This document shows, in pieces, positions 4,851-46,947 of a stretch of DNA of 64,000 nucleotides; the first letter of the stretch is position 1, and each line of letters opens with the position of its first letter. Origin of the DNA: Candidatus Nanoarchaeia archaeon (GTDB taxonomy: Archaea > Nanobdellota > Nanobdellia > Woesearchaeales > JANQNE01); assembly GCA_028279725.1 (NCBI GenBank), contig JANQNE010000007.1, positions 1-64,000 of the forward strand, read 5' to 3'. The notes beneath the pieces are model-generated. The model ran no database searches. It was not told where the DNA came from and saw nothing but the letters and a program-made list of their open reading frames with translations. The translations under genes and the position numbers were made by a program.

Positions 4851-4861
4851 GGGGGGTGTTG

Positions 4862-4954
4862 TGCATAGTGCCAGGCGAAGTGCTTGGTATAAGTTCCAGA
4901 ACATTAGAATCTGGAATACAGCAATAAAAGAAGCTGTACGTAGCGCACTATGCA
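4862..4954 (+). ncRNA. Structured repeat / candidate ncRNA, copy 1 of 3
   Basis: A 93-nt element is bounded by a perfect 10-bp inverted repeat (TGCATAGTGC at 4862-4871, GCACTATGCA at 4945-4954). Inside are three hairpins: CCAGGC/GCTTGG (one G-U), TTCCAGA/TCTGGAA and ACAGC/GCTGT, so the whole can fold as a multi-branched RNA. Flanking the basal stem are short motifs AGGCGAAG and GTAGCG. Related elements lie at 39777-39867 and 46162-46253. It starts 12 bases after the glyS stop. It could be a 3'UTR structure, a small RNA, or a MITE-like mobile palindrome. Confidence 0.6.
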
Positions 4955-4958
4955 TTTT

Positions 4959-4989
4959 GAACAGCAACATTTATATAGTATGGCTGTTC
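4959..4989. promoter_or_regulatory. TATA box enclosed by 7-bp inverted repeat
   Basis: GAACAGC (4959-4965) and GCTGTTC (4983-4989) form an inverted repeat around the TATA box TTTATATA (4970-4977) of the downstream AbrB-like gene. A second small palindrome CTGAAATTCAG lies at 4998-5008, near the expected transcription start. This layout suits a dimeric repressor blocking TBP/TFB, possibly autoregulation by the downstream gene product. Confidence 0.45.
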
Positions 4990-38211: not shown

Positions 38212-39726
38212 CTATAATTCTACCCCTGAAAAATCACTTTTAAGACTTTCACCTTTACTTTTATCAACAATATCCTTAAACAAAGGGATCTTTATTGGAG
38301 TCGCAAATTTTGTAAAATTAGAAGTTATCACAGCTTCCCCTTTATCAAGCGAAGCTATTGTCCTGTTATCATTGCTCATATCCTGTGAAGCACTCTCGAT
38401 TATTGCCTGTCTTTCAGGAGCCATCTCTATCCCCAGTATTATCTTTGTATTCATATTGGCTAATATTTGTCTTGGTATCAGTGAAGGAAGCTGCGTTATG
38501 GCACACAATCCTATCTTAAACTTCCTTCCTTCACGCGCAACTGTAGAGAATATATTACTTCCCCTTTCCAAAACTTCTTTTCCTAGAACTCTAGGAGCTT
38601 CCTCCAAAACTACTGAAACAACTGGCTTATCATCCAGCTCACCGATCATCTTATACTGCTTATATTTCCCAAACATCTCATGAGTGATCAGACTGCCAAC
38701 CAAAATCTCAACAGCTCCTGAAAAATTAGATGTATCTATGATAACAACCTTAGAATCTTCAAGCTCAGCTGAAATATCTTTCACAGTTGACTCTCCTGAC
38801 TGCAGATCAAATATCCCATTACAATACAGTTTTCCTCCAGTCCATTCAAGATCAAGCAAGCTCAATATCCTTCTTCTAACAACTGCCAAAGTATCTTCAT
38901 GAAAACCGACTGAAAGCTTCTTCTCCTGGATTATAGCTTCTATCCAGTTCTTTCCATATTCTCTGTAATATGCTCCCAAACATTGCTGTTGAGGATCACT
39001 CCAGTAAACAACACCATTAAAATGACCAGGCCTTATATTTCTTATATTTATCCTAAGAGTCTTGCATCCTGCAGGAGCATTTGGAGAATAATAAACAACC
39101 TTATCTTTTGAAGGATGATCTTTCAATCCGATTGAATTCCTTCCATAATATTCATCATGTGGATCCAAAATAAGCATTCCACAATAATCCTTATCCACAA
39201 GATCCCAGAGCATTACAGAAGTAAGATTGCTCTTTCCTCTACCTGTTGTAGCAGGAATCAGTATATGATGGCTAAGCACTTCAGCACCAGGCAAAAATAT
39301 ATCAACATCAAGCATCTTGCTTCCACTTCTTAGCTTCCCGACATAAAGCGGATCTCTAGGTTTTGTCAAAAACTTAAGATCTTCTTTCCCAACCTCCCTG
39401 ACTTCAGAGAAAAACTGAGGCAGCTGCTTGCACAGTCTTGCACCTTTATCATCCATCGATATCATCGGCTTCAAAAAAGCAAGCTTATAGTTTCTTAGCT
39501 CAGGCTCAAGCATATCCAGATTGCTTCCTTCCTCAAGTTTTAATCCAGACATCAGCTCAAGGTGCTGCTGACTTAGCTGGCTTCCATACACAAGATCAAA
39601 AACCTGCAGAAGGATCCTTCCATCATCTGTATCAGCAACAACTAATTCTCCTAATTCAATCTTCTCAGAACTCTTCTGCCTAACACATATTCTTCCAAAC
39701 TCTCCTGATATAACCTGCCCCTTCAT
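38212..39726 (-). CDS. herA: HerA DNA translocase/helicase
   Basis: HerA is a hexameric translocase that works with NurA nuclease, Mre11 and Rad50 in DNA-end resection. The N-terminal HAS barrel is visible ([31 protein letters not shown]). The RecA-like core has Walker [10 protein letters not shown] near residue 166, Walker [11 protein letters not shown] near 375, and an arginine region [19 protein letters not shown] near 405. The 504-residue length is normal. A TATA-like CCTATAAATCTTTAAA lies upstream. The structured element copy 3 (39777-39867) sits between this gene and deoxyhypusine synthase. No NurA gene is seen beside it in the window. Confidence 0.92.
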
Positions 39727-39776
39727 AATGACCAGAATAAGTTTTTATTATTTAAAGATTTATAGGCTGCTGTATT

Positions 39777-39867
39777 CATAGCACCTAGCGTAACTCACTA
39801 TATTCCCTCTATTTCTCAAATAAATCTGACGAAAGAATCAAAATAGGATCAAGTGAAGCGTGCCATG
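39777..39867 (+). ncRNA. Structured repeat / candidate ncRNA, copy 3 of 3
   Basis: This is the most diverged copy. The basal stem is CATAGCAC (39777-39784) with GTGCCATG (39860-39867), 7 of 8 pairs. Two pairs are changed compensatorily relative to copies 1 and 2 (AGTGC/GCACT becomes AGCAC/GTGCC). The flanking motifs CTAGCGTAA and TGAAGCG, and an internal AATCTGACG, align with the other copies. It ends 3 bases from the deoxyhypusine synthase stop, but on the strand opposite to that gene's orientation. The strand assignment is by homology only. Confidence 0.5.
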
Positions 39868-39869
39868 GG

Positions 39870-40922
39870 TCATTTCTTCATCCTTTCAAGGACTGCTTTA
39901 ACAACCAGAGGCCATGCTATCGTAGCGTCAGCATAAACTTCAACCTGCTTTCCGCCCTCTGATTCAGGAACAAACTTCCCCCAGGAAACACCCTCAGAAT
40001 AAGTACATCCAGATAACCCTCCCCAATGAACAGGCTCAGGACATATCCTTACACCATAATGGAACCTTCTCAATATCTCCTCATCACCAATCCTTTTCGC
40101 AAGAATATCAAGATAAGGTCCTACTTGCTGGGCCCAGTTTCTAGGAACTCCGCCACCTATCGTAAATATTCCCAGCTTCTTGCTCTTCTTTACTCTTTCA
40201 GTATAATCTTCAAGATCTAAGAATGGGTTAAAACTCAACGCATCTCTTCCTTCCATCGCAGCCTTTTTAAGATAGATAGCAAAATCAAGTCCAAACTCAG
40301 AATCTGTGAAAGCAGGAATATACACAGGGATGTTTTTCTCATACGCTGACTTCAAAACTCCCCTTCCCTTCACACTCTTAGAAAGATACTCACCTAATTT
40401 TTTGTTTATCATAAAGCTGCATGTCTCCTTATTTTCTCCAGATTCTTCATAATCTTTAAGAACTTTCTTGACAACAACTTCAGCATCATCAAGATTCTTC
40501 TCAAGCTCGATAGTATCATAAACTCGGTTATATCCTTTCTCATAGAGTTCAGTATCATCCATCTCATCCTTATATTTGAAATGAGTCATCCCAGCAGCCT
40601 CTATAAATCCATGAGCCATCAATGCTCCAGTACTAACTATAGCATCTACCATTCCGTTGTCTATCATATCACATATTACTAGCCCCATCTTTGCAACTGT
40701 CATAGCTCCTGATAATGTCAAAACCTTAAAACAATCCTTGTCCTTCACCATCTCATGAAGTGCATCTGCCGCCTCCCCTACTCTTCTGCCTGCAAAAGCT
40801 GTATTACTCATCCCTTTAAGCAGCTCATTGACAGTCTTGCATTTTCCAAGGTCTAATGATGTGACTGGCTCAAATCCATCTGAATGGCCGTCATGTAATT
40901 CTGTTCTTTTTGATGTTCCCAT
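39870..40922 (-). CDS. dys: Deoxyhypusine synthase
   Basis: This enzyme transfers the aminobutyl group of spermidine to a lysine of initiation factor aIF5A, the first step of hypusine formation. The protein (350 aa from ATG 40922) has family motifs LTLSGAMTVAKMGLVICDMI, STGALMAHGFIEAAG, the NAD-site strand LGIFTIGGGVPRNWAQQ, and the catalytic Lys in EGVSWGKF followed by VEVYADATIAWPLVV. I chose 40922 because the longer frame starts at TTG 40934 and a TATA-like TTTATAAAATG lies about 20 bases upstream. It links with the arginine decarboxylase/agmatinase genes at 17-18.5 kb through polyamine supply. No aIF5A or spermidine synthase is in the window. Confidence 0.93.
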   Translation of the reverse strand: MGTSKRTELHDGHSDGFEPVTSLDLGKCKTVNELLKGMSNTAFAGRRVGEAADALHEMVKDKDCFKVLTLSGAMTVAKMGLVICDMIDNGMVDAIVSTGALMAHGFIEAAGMTHFKYKDEMDDTELYEKGYNRVYDTIELEKNLDDAEVVVKKVLKDYEESGENKETCSFMINKKLGEYLSKSVKGRGVLKSAYEKNIPVYIPAFTDSEFGLDFAIYLKKAAMEGRDALSFNPFLDLEDYTERVKKSKKLGIFTIGGGVPRNWAQQVGPYLDILAKRIGDEEILRRFHYGVRICPEPVHWGGLSGCTYSEGVSWGKFVPESEGGKQVEVYADATIAWPLVVKAVLERMKK

Positions 40923-41020
40923 AACACACAGCAAAATTTTCCCATTTTATAAATCTTGCCCAAAACAACAAAAAGTTTTATAAACCTCATTGCCATTAAG
41001 CAGCATAAGAGGTGCTTATT

Positions 41021-44121: not shown

Positions 44122-46158
44122 ATGAAAAAAGCATTTCTAGGAAATATAGAAGAAGAAAAGTTTGAGTTTCCGCTGGAAGCTCTAAAAAAACATTTCATCG
44201 CTCTAGGATCCAGCGGTTCTGGAAAGACAGTATTATGTAAAGTGATTATGGAAGAAGCTGCAAGAAATAAGATCCCAGCAATAATCTTAGACCCGCAAGG
44301 AGACTTGGCAAGCTTAGCGATCCTTGGAAAAGACACAGAAAAGCAAGGAATCACAAAAGACATGCAGGACTCATACACAAAAAACACAAAGATAACAATA
44401 TTTACTCCATGTTCTTCAAAAGGAGTTCCTATATGCATCAATCCATTAAAAGTTCCCAAAGAAAAGATAGAAAAAGAAGAGCTCATAAACATAATCCAGC
44501 AGGTTGCTAACGCAACAGCGAATCTTCTTGGCTACAGGGATGACGACAGAGGTCATGCTGCACAGAGTATAATATACTTCGTCCTTTTAGACTCATACGA
44601 GACAAAAAAAGACATCAAATCATTCTCAAACTTAGCAAACATAATAGAAAATCTGCCAGAGAAGATAAAAGAAAAGGCAAGAGAATTCACATCAAGCAGC
44701 AGAGACATAAAAGAATTGGTAAGAAAGATAAAATACCTTACAATAGGTGGAAAAAATCTCCTCTTCCAGTTCGGAATCCCGCTAAACATAGAAACTCTCC
44801 TAAAGAATAAGGAAAATAAGACACAGATCAGTATAATATACCTGAACACATTAAGATCAGAGAAAGAAAAACATTTCTTCCTTGCTATGCTGTCAACTTC
44901 ATTATACCAATGGATGTTAAGCAACCCATCAAAAAATCTGCAGGCTCTATACTACATTGATGAAATAGCAGAATACATTCCAGCAGGAGCAAAAAAACCA
45001 GTTACAAAAGAAATACTCCAATTAATCTTCAAACAGGCAAGAAAATATGGAGTTGGCTGCGTGATCTCAACACAAAACCCAGGAGATATAGACTACAAAG
45101 CATTTGCTCAGTTCGGAACTTGGGCTGTAGGAAGATTAACAACTAAGCAGGACAGAGATAAGATCAAAGACGCACTAAAATCATTAGCAGGATCACAGAT
45201 AAACACGATAATCGACGAACTTCCAAAACTTCAGCCTTCTGAATTTATCTTCTTCTCACCGGATGTACTGAAAGACATAAAGAAGCTAAAAAGCAGATAT
45301 CTGATCACAAAACACACAACACTGACAGAAAATGACGTAAAGAAGATTATCCCGGAATCAATAAGAAATAAATTCAAGCATATAGAAGAACAGCCTGAAG
45401 AAAACAAACCAACAGAAAAGACAATGCCTCATCTCCATATAGGAATAAGAAGCAAACAATTAAACAGGATAGTTGAATCAAAAAAGAAAAGAGCTCTGAT
45501 AGTTCTAGGTCCAAAGAACGAAAGCATAGAAGAAATCAAACTTTTCTTCAAGCCGATTATTATGACAAAAATCAGGCAGATGAAAAGAGGATTGATAAAA
45601 AAGACAATAGAAGAACACATCGTCCTCTTCGACGGGATCAACGGAGATCTGCTAAGATTCAAGAATAATTCATTAAAAAATCTAGACGGCTTCTCACATC
45701 TATTAGGGTTAACAGACGACGAAATCACAATAATAAGAATCTTATCAAAATCAACAAGAGACCTAACATCATCAGACATAGCAGCAACATTAGGACTCAC
45801 AGAATCACTTGTAAAAAAGACAGTAACTAATCTTATGAAAAAGAAGATAGTCTCTTATTCAGGAAAAGCTGGAAAAACACACCTATGGAACTCTCTAATA
45901 AAAATAAACATCCCAGAAATAGTCAGCAAAGTATCTTCCCCAGAACTCACAATCTCAGAAGAGCCAGAAGATGCTGAAATCATAAAAGAAAAAGTTAACA
46001 TAGACCAGCTTTCAGATGCAGTCAGGTCATATTTCAAGAGCTCAAATATAGTTGAGCACTACACAATCTATTATCCTTTCTATCAGATTAAGCTCAACGA
46101 CAAGAACAAAATCCGTGTTCTGAACATCAGTGCAGTCAGCGGAAAGGTTATAGACTAG
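44122..46158 (+). CDS. HerA/VirB4-like ATPase with C-terminal winged helix
   Basis: The 678-residue protein has an N-terminal hexameric ATPase: Walker A GSSGSGKTVLC near residue 30, Walker B ALYYIDEIAEY near 280, and the sensor stretch FKQARKYGVGCVISTQNPGD near 305. It resembles bacterial YjgR/DUF853-type ATPases more than archaeal HerA because it has no HAS barrel. Residues 530-600 contain a winged helix (GLTDDEITIIRILSKSTRDLTSSDIAATLGLTESLVKKTV). The last 100 residues are alpha/beta. TTTATATA lies about 28 bases upstream of the ATG. The stop is 4 bases before structured element copy 2. DNA or protein pumping is possible; the substrate is unknown. Confidence 0.82.
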   Translation: MKKAFLGNIEEEKFEFPLEALKKHFIALGSSGSGKTVLCKVIMEEAARNKIPAIILDPQGDLASLAILGKDTEKQGITKDMQDSYTKNTKITIFTPCSSKGVPICINPLKVPKEKIEKEELINIIQQVANATANLLGYRDDDRGHAAQSIIYFVLLDSYETKKDIKSFSNLANIIENLPEKIKEKAREFTSSSRDIKELVRKIKYLTIGGKNLLFQFGIPLNIETLLKNKENKTQISIIYLNTLRSEKEKHFFLAMLSTSLYQWMLSNPSKNLQALYYIDEIAEYIPAGAKKPVTKEILQLIFKQARKYGVGCVISTQNPGDIDYKAFAQFGTWAVGRLTTKQDRDKIKDALKSLAGSQINTIIDELPKLQPSEFIFFSPDVLKDIKKLKSRYLITKHTTLTENDVKKIIPESIRNKFKHIEEQPEENKPTEKTMPHLHIGIRSKQLNRIVESKKKRALIVLGPKNESIEEIKLFFKPIIMTKIRQMKRGLIKKTIEEHIVLFDGINGDLLRFKNNSLKNLDGFSHLLGLTDDEITIIRILSKSTRDLTSSDIAATLGLTESLVKKTVTNLMKKKIVSYSGKAGKTHLWNSLIKINIPEIVSKVSSPELTISEEPEDAEIIKEKVNIDQLSDAVRSYFKSSNIVEHYTIYYPFYQIKLNDKNKIRVLNISAVSGKVID

Positions 46159-46161
46159 ATC

Positions 46162-46253
46162 GTATAGTGCCAAGCGTAGTTCTCCAATAAACATCTATAA
46201 AAACCAGAATCTGAAGCACGTCAATAAAGAAAATAGTCCGAAGCGCACTATAC
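46162..46253 (+). ncRNA. Structured repeat / candidate ncRNA, copy 2 of 3
   Basis: A 92-nt element starts 4 bases after the HerA-like ATPase stop. The basal stem GTATAGTGC (46162-46170) with GCACTATAC (46245-46253) is perfect. It differs from copy 1 at one pair by a matched change (C-G to T-A). It shares AAGCGTAG after the left arm, GAAGCG before the right arm, and an internal AGAATCTGAAG/CAATAAA stretch with copy 1. The interior is less hairpin-rich than copy 1. Confidence 0.6.
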
Positions 46254-46311
46254 AATGCAGAACAGAAAACTATTTAAACGATAATGATTTAGTATTCTAG
46301 AGTGAGGAGTT

Positions 46312-46947
46312 ATGATTGGATTTTTTAAGAGCTTTTTAAACAAGTTTGTCTTGGACCTTTTCAAGAGGAAGAAACACATAAAGTTAGGTCTATATGGACC
46401 TCCAAATGGAGGAAAAACAACTCTGGCTAACAGGGTCTGCCAAGACTGGCTTGGTGAAGATATGGGTTCTGTATCAAATGTAGCTCATGAGACAAGAGAG
46501 ATCCAGATCAAAGAGCAGATCAATATAAAATCAAACGGAAAAGAACTTTCTTTCAACTTGGTCGACACACCAGGTATTGCAACAAGAATAGACTATGAAG
46601 AATTCTTGAAATTTGGAATGAAAGAAAAGCAGGCTAAAGCAAGAGCAAAAGAAGCTACAAAAGGAGTTATAGACTCTGTAAAATGGCTTGACAACATGGA
46701 TGCTGTTGTAGTCGTATTAGACTCAACAAAAGACCCTTATTCACAGGTAAACATAACGATAATAGGAAACCTTGCAGCAAGAAACATACCAGTCCTTATT
46801 GCAGCGAACAAGGTTGACCTGAAAAAATCAAAGATAAAGAAAATAGAAGAGGCATTCCCTCAATATGATGTTGTTGGTGTTTCAGCTAAATACGGCAACA
46901 ATGTAGATAACTTCTACGGTGCATTATTCAAGATCGCAGGTAAATAA
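46312..46947 (+). CDS. Era-like GTPase
   Basis: A 211-residue small GTPase. Motifs are G1 GPPNGGKTT near residue 30, G3 DTPG near 84, G4 NKVD near 163 and G5 VSAK near 188. The switch region is longer than in Era and there is no KH domain, so it is not bacterial Era. A GAGGAG site precedes the ATG. The following two genes encode DUF2073 and a zinc-ribbon protein. That three-gene order is conserved in many archaea and suggests a ribosome- or RNA-related complex of unknown detail. The three genes lie 1-3 bases apart. Confidence 0.87.
   Translation: MIGFFKSFLNKFVLDLFKRKKHIKLGLYGPPNGGKTTLANRVCQDWLGEDMGSVSNVAHETREIQIKEQINIKSNGKELSFNLVDTPGIATRIDYEEFLKFGMKEKQAKARAKEATKGVIDSVKWLDNMDAVVVVLDSTKDPYSQVNITIIGNLAARNIPVLIAANKVDLKKSKIKKIEEAFPQYDVVGVSAKYGNNVDNFYGALFKIAGK

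Follow-up and report, generated by a model that had tools for sequence, protein, structure and literature searches.

According to the available part of the literature on the subject, promoter-targeted transposition is known for a few bacterial transposons, with yeast Ty3 drawn in by analogy (PMC3942029). The p-MULT elements described there generate 8–9 bp duplications and are inserted 15–17 bp upstream of -35, and a contact with the initiation complex has been proposed for them on the model of Ty3 (Guerillot 2014, PMC3942029). A promoter or intergenic preference of the archaeal element ISH6 is only suggested in the same paper (PMC3942029), and the accessible portion of PMC6640164 does not report promoter targeting. 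In open-access full texts we found no description of archaeal promoter-targeted transposition or of a co-varying element stem.

Here we describe a family of archaeal elements, represented by three copies in the window (the whole 64,000-nucleotide stretch of DNA that was analyzed), which are probably promoter-targeted, non-autonomous MITEs with a conserved foldable core. Like other MITEs, they are short, non-coding and multi-copy, with inverted ends and a target duplication of fixed length; unlike them, they are inserted with precision at promoters, and their end stem varies within a genome yet pairs within each copy. REP/BIME and Correia elements, as generally described, are likewise dispersed intergenic hairpins that often occur in inverted pairs, from which the present family differs in its promoter-side position and its 8–9 bp duplications. 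Integron attC sites, which are read as folded single-stranded DNA, resemble the family in their variable self-complementary arms with extrahelical bases, but the elements described here show no RYYYAAC/GTTRRRY boxes by eye, are dispersed and have target duplications. The prokaryotic Mutator-like transposons TnGBS, ISLre2 and ISKra4 (p-MULT 3 and 4) share with the family the 8–9 bp duplications and an insertion site at a constant spacing from the promoter that follows, and the ISKra4 type also the near-perfect ends and the occurrence in both orientations, whereas they use bacterial sigma-A promoters, are of kilobase size and carry their own transposase, and the available part of the source describes no foldable core in them (PMC3942029).

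All three window elements that the sequence-only reading had reported are present, on the plus strand and with the flanking motifs that it gave (Table 1); neither strand of the window yielded a fourth element in a strict scan. An outward TATA-like sequence lies beside each of the three. The right end of copy 2 adjoins the stop codon of a minus-strand gene (39870-40934), and copy 3 is preceded by a gene (44122-46158) that stops 1 nt short of it and followed by one whose start codon is at 46312.

Table 1. Parts of the three window copies and the TATA-like sequences beside them, in window coordinates
Feature	Sequence	Position	Strand	Remarks
Copy 1, model limits		4861..4956	+	Match to model R1, 77.5 bits, E 1e-17 (own genome); copy 1 is among the 26 sequences that built model R1
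Copy 1, left arm	GCATAGTGC	4863..4871	+	
Copy 1, inner 5' side		4872..4881	+	Bulge CAG (3 nt), pairing GC, loop strand GAA, pairing GT
Copy 1, inner 3' side		4938..4944	+	Pairing AC, loop strand GTA, pairing GC
Copy 1, right arm	GCACTATGC	4945..4953	+	
TATA-like sequence of copy 1	TTTATATA	4970..4977	+	Points outward, 16 nt past stem
Copy 2, model limits		39774..39871	+	67 bits, E 8.8e-15 (own genome)
Copy 2, left arm	TCATAGCAC	39776..39784	+	
Copy 2, right arm	GTGCCATGG	39860..39868	+	
TATA-like sequence of minus-strand gene 38212-39726	TTTAAATA	39748..39755	-	Points away from copy 2, ~20 nt past stem
Copy 3, model limits		46160..46256	+	90.3 bits, E 2.7e-21 (own genome)
Copy 3, left arm	GTATAGTGC	46162..46170	+	
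Copy 3, right arm	GCACTATAC	46245..46253	+	
TATA-like sequence of copy 3	TTTAAA	46273..46278	+	Points outward, 19 nt past stem

In the genome to which the window belongs (G000, here the own genome), the pattern GCGWA-N45-75-GWAGCG has 32 matches against 28 for a backward control, so that the raw count is worthless by itself as evidence for a family. The family was recognized because the matches have a common interior, GTTCTC..ACATC..AATCTG..GACGAAGCG, found in 26 of the 32 once two nested duplicates (L013, L028), two sequences without family resemblance (L021, L023) and two matches without a locus had been dropped. The sequence-only reading had proposed a covariance model of the three copies as a check; one built from these 26 copies, three of them from the window, recovered further copies both in the own genome and in related DPANN genomes. 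There are 40 copies at E<=1e-3 in the 1.42-Mb own genome, a number that includes the 26 model-building sequences, and 52 in a second DPANN genome, JAGLWF (Nanoarchaeota archaeon RS_12_14 ZL285.bin.14, here G007). The order of the host and its relatives, which we take to be Woesearchaeales, is assigned to DPANN by the names of two of its members, Nanoarchaeota and Woesearchaeota; 26 of its 352 genomes have model matches, the weakest of which, at ~27–31 bits, are less certain. Across the phylum, 19 of 371 genomes have matches, and among the matches listed all are in the same order; in both searches the copy counts per genome are lower bounds, 11 candidates having been scored in each. The pattern GCATAGCACCNAGCGNAG yields 68 matching stretches in named genomes and 4 viral contigs, and of the 46 such loci outside JAGLWF one, in Woesearchaeota Bin_486, fits the model. 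The core is ~97 nt long, or about 105 bp including the ends in G007, and is non-coding. Rfam covariance models matched only two tRNAs within the window and none of the elements, and in five relatives they gave only chance-level matches at E<=1. An all-against-all comparison of 2217 open frames recognized no shared transposase near the copies, the neighbors belonging mostly to housekeeping families.

The frame of the core consists of a stem of at least 9 bp, a 3-nt 5' bulge, two base pairs, a GNA/GNA loop and two further base pairs; in the 26 copies this takes the form of nine outer pairs, two GC pairs past the bulge, a GWA/GWA loop and two more pairs. The top covarying column pairs are 8/93, 4/97, 3/98 and 10/91. 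The view that the window stems differ in sequence yet remain paired is correct for copies 1 and 3 (9/9 each) but not entirely for copy 2, which has seven Watson-Crick pairs, one T.G and one A.C mismatch. The three hairpins ascribed to copy 1 are indeed predicted (-32.7 kcal/mol, z -4.6), and its complementary strand folds equally well (z -5.6), but the folds predicted for copies 2 and 3 are weak (z -1.2 and -1.9), and what is common to the copies is the basal frame only, not the three-hairpin fold. No common fold was found among copies for the inner 55 nt, and RNAalifold, run on an alignment that omits copies longer than 110 nt, gave longer inner pairing in the groups of two genomes only (G311 and G237). 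In G336 and G334 the loop is a 2x2 tandem GA and was compared with the K-turn, but two base pairs lie between loop and bulge, a spacing that K-turns are not known to have between tandem GA and bulge. C/D box, H/ACA, bulge-helix-bulge, attC and ribozyme readings were likewise considered and rejected, as the defining motif was not seen.

Covariation was assessed in an alignment of 105 distinct copies, drawn from three genomes, that was fitted to the structure and in which related copies are not independent events. In this set 98.2% of cells pair, and both partners have changed in 265 cells compared with 64.3 (sd 6.1) in shuffles, while slid controls collapse. Watson-Crick pairs dominate, G.T/T.G accounting for 35 of 2314 cells and A.C/C.A for 17, and the strand preference is modest. 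The bulge and the GNA/GNA loop are conserved in sequence while the outer stem and the two inner 2-bp helices change in pairs; in other genomes the stems look unrelated in sequence to those of the own genome, and the bulge, the loop and a central AATCTG/ACTCGG-like motif are retained. Among 38 of the 40 own copies (those longer than 110 nt left out) there are 24 distinct left arms, and resemblance between arms is independent of that between interiors (Mantel r -0.006, p 0.53). Perfect stems are found in 18 of the 21 own-genome copies that have no recognizable duplication; in this genome pairing is therefore maintained or restored after insertion. G007 has 7 arms in 49 of its 52 copies, those with short flanks left out, and there the arms track the interior (Mantel r 0.455, p 0.001). 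That the family is structurally constrained is well supported by these comparisons.

The paired changes could have a mutational origin. Template switching within palindromes, known as quasipalindrome correction, copies one arm to the other, and the folded form would then need no function of its own; double changes far above single ones, rare G.T pairs and own-genome arms that vary independently of the interior are all in keeping with such a process. Arm-to-arm copying should, however, remove the 3-nt bulge and the mismatched GNA/GNA loop as well, whereas no other letters of the core are conserved as strictly, and the 2-bp helices past the bulge co-change too, which leaves template switching a possible but doubtful explanation.

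It is unlikely that the family works as a structured non-coding RNA transcribed from the core, with mobility secondary. The suggestion of an undescribed structured RNA would fit the strong covariation, the conserved bulge and loop, the lack of an Rfam family and the small excess of G.T over A.C cells; against it, G.T makes up only 1.5% of cells, the inner part has no common fold, and the elements lie in both orientations, with stems about as intact between divergent genes (3/6 perfect in the own genome, 13/15 in G007). Nor is there a consistent promoter into the element, the TATA peak pointing away from it.

The other possibility raised from the sequence, a non-autonomous palindromic element, agrees with what was found: many copies, inverted ends, 8–9 bp target duplications and nested insertions. 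Target duplications with a modal length of 8 bp were scored at >=7 in 23 of the 49 G007 copies with sufficient flanks, against 1.0 with permuted flanks, and in 5 of 40 own copies, against 0.5 expected on the same basis; they are clear in G007 and G311 and mostly decayed in the own genome. Terminal inverted repeats measure 9–15 bp in G000 and G007, and the ends in G311 are of the GGCTCTGT type. Elements of G311 have two inverted cores between ends like GGCTCTGTCCCGAAT, with 9-bp duplications and most often a total of ~263 bp. G007 also has a second subfamily with a different stem, whose members lie nested within copies of the first or form pairs with them. The comparisons give good support to the view that the family is mobile. 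The sequence-only reading had set an origin from transposon ends with target duplications, along with an absence of further copies or of covariation, against a structured family; such ends were found, and so were further copies and covariation, and transposon-like ends and structural covariation are both true together.

Cores of one subfamily lie inside those of another at L084, L085, L086 and L077 in G007, and other hairpin-rich inserts occur within cores too. Close inverted core pairs, from a few to ~50 nt apart, are common (L205, L206, L235, L240; C13:18998-19198 and C2:18117-18316 in G007). In two own-genome copies, L088 (C8:33653-33801) and L087 (C1:145641-145797), an insert of 52–60 nt occupies the same site just before AATCTG and consists of two strong hairpins, the stems of which differ but pair, around a common GGACACCAGA. 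The 1.1-Mb genome G311 has ~100 ends of the GGCTCTGT type on many contigs, and many of these belong to core-less elements of 150–470 bp directly upstream of TATA boxes (L262, L263, L269, L270).

The adjacency to promoters, which the sequence-only reading did not mention, is the most unusual property of the family. The order along the sequence is element end, duplication, AAAG-like BRE and TATA, and outward TATA-like hexamers peak at 16–19 nt in G000 and at 20–23 nt in G007. In fixed windows, which were chosen after the profile had been seen and for which the expectation was taken from six other windows, a TATA-like hexamer is present in 30 of 52 G007 copies (3.3 expected) and 20 of 40 G000 copies (1.5 expected); the proportion is 15/20 among duplication-bearing copies, and only 3/12 in the minus-E-minus context of G000. 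Start codons, by crude calls, lie 44–50 nt from the element in 9 of 41 outward genes in G000 and 14 of 56 in G007. The copies occur in both orientations to promoters, the promoter being at the right end in 10 own copies and at the left end in 9 (9 and 18, respectively, in G007), and also between divergent genes, and in co-directional gene pairs a stop codon adjoins the end opposite the promoter side. Fifteen GGCTCTGT-end mini-transposons, picked by border 9-mers matching with <=2 mismatches, have a TATA 15–17 nt from the end in 12 cases, and five of them (L262, L263, L267, L269, L270) have no visible core; since the core-less elements take the same position, it is the mechanism of insertion, not the core, that sets it. 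The location of the family at promoters is, on these counts, well supported.

Selection might instead have placed a host regulatory site (an insulator, operator or terminator), domesticated or never mobile, upstream of promoters, and the fixed TATA distance, the stems kept by old copies and the stop codons at the opposite end would suit such a site; it is nevertheless quite improbable in view of the target duplications and nesting, the occupation of the same position by elements with wholly different ends, core-less ones among them, and the patchy distribution over the order, although copies may have been domesticated once inserted. Random insertion with survival only in the gaps between stop codon and promoter of a compact genome, to which the stop codons beside one end in co-directional pairs would lend themselves, is very improbable, the TATA peak being 4–6 nt wide, equally strong in the divergent regions of G007 (11/15 against 0.8 expected), where stop codons impose no constraint, and reproduced by the other type of end.

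For promoter-targeted MITEs, then, a DDE-type transposase acting in trans would insert the element at the upstream border of a promoter, and the simplest account of this site would be that the enzyme is tethered to TBP/TFB or locates the DNA that they distort. A duplication of 8–9 bp made upstream would leave the BRE, the TATA and the gene intact, so that insertions would be tolerated and accumulate. The core would be recognized in folded form, single-stranded or as a cruciform, by the transposition machinery or a host factor, and would be kept foldable after insertion. As a tentative and broader proposal, DPANN transposons might combine TBP/TFB-tethered integration at the upstream edge of the BRE with a folded core recognized by shape instead of sequence, the stem letters drifting in pairs; the integration complex may bind such a core as its ligand, in the form of single-stranded DNA or of RNA. 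Were this a clear case at an archaeal BRE/TATA, the archaeal initiation machinery, which is the simplest system related to that of eukaryotes, would seem to guide integration too, and the elements would provide a natural promoter map for uncultured DPANN genomes. The co-varying stem also raises the question of what reads a folded element with almost any arm sequence.

The own genome has no transposase matching PF01609, PF13737, NF033572 or PF00872, and the two Mutator-like profiles among these, NF033572 and PF00872, match in 6 and 3 of the 352 genomes, the own genome not among them. Inverted repeats around six PF01609 and two ISKra4 loci revealed no MITE-like ends. No autonomous transposon with matching ends was found in G000 or G007; the one candidate, in G294 (L297 27-2595, contig C87), has ends of the G311 type only. 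It is 2.57 kb long, is bounded by GGCTCTGT/ACAGAGCC and carries an IS6-like transposase (DDE_Tnp_IS240) for which no viral relative was found, and 18 nt beyond its right end is a TATA followed by an apparent tRNA gene; its 8-bp duplication is T-rich and so weak evidence. Its ends resemble those of the G311 mini-elements, but only 8–9 terminal letters are common and the ends of the window elements differ. The element may be related to the mobilizer of G311, with a likeness limited to G311-type ends. Near-identical IS6-like transposases occur at L298, L299, L300 and L302 (in G310, G016 and G334), in three families of the order, which may be taken as a sign of recent spread.
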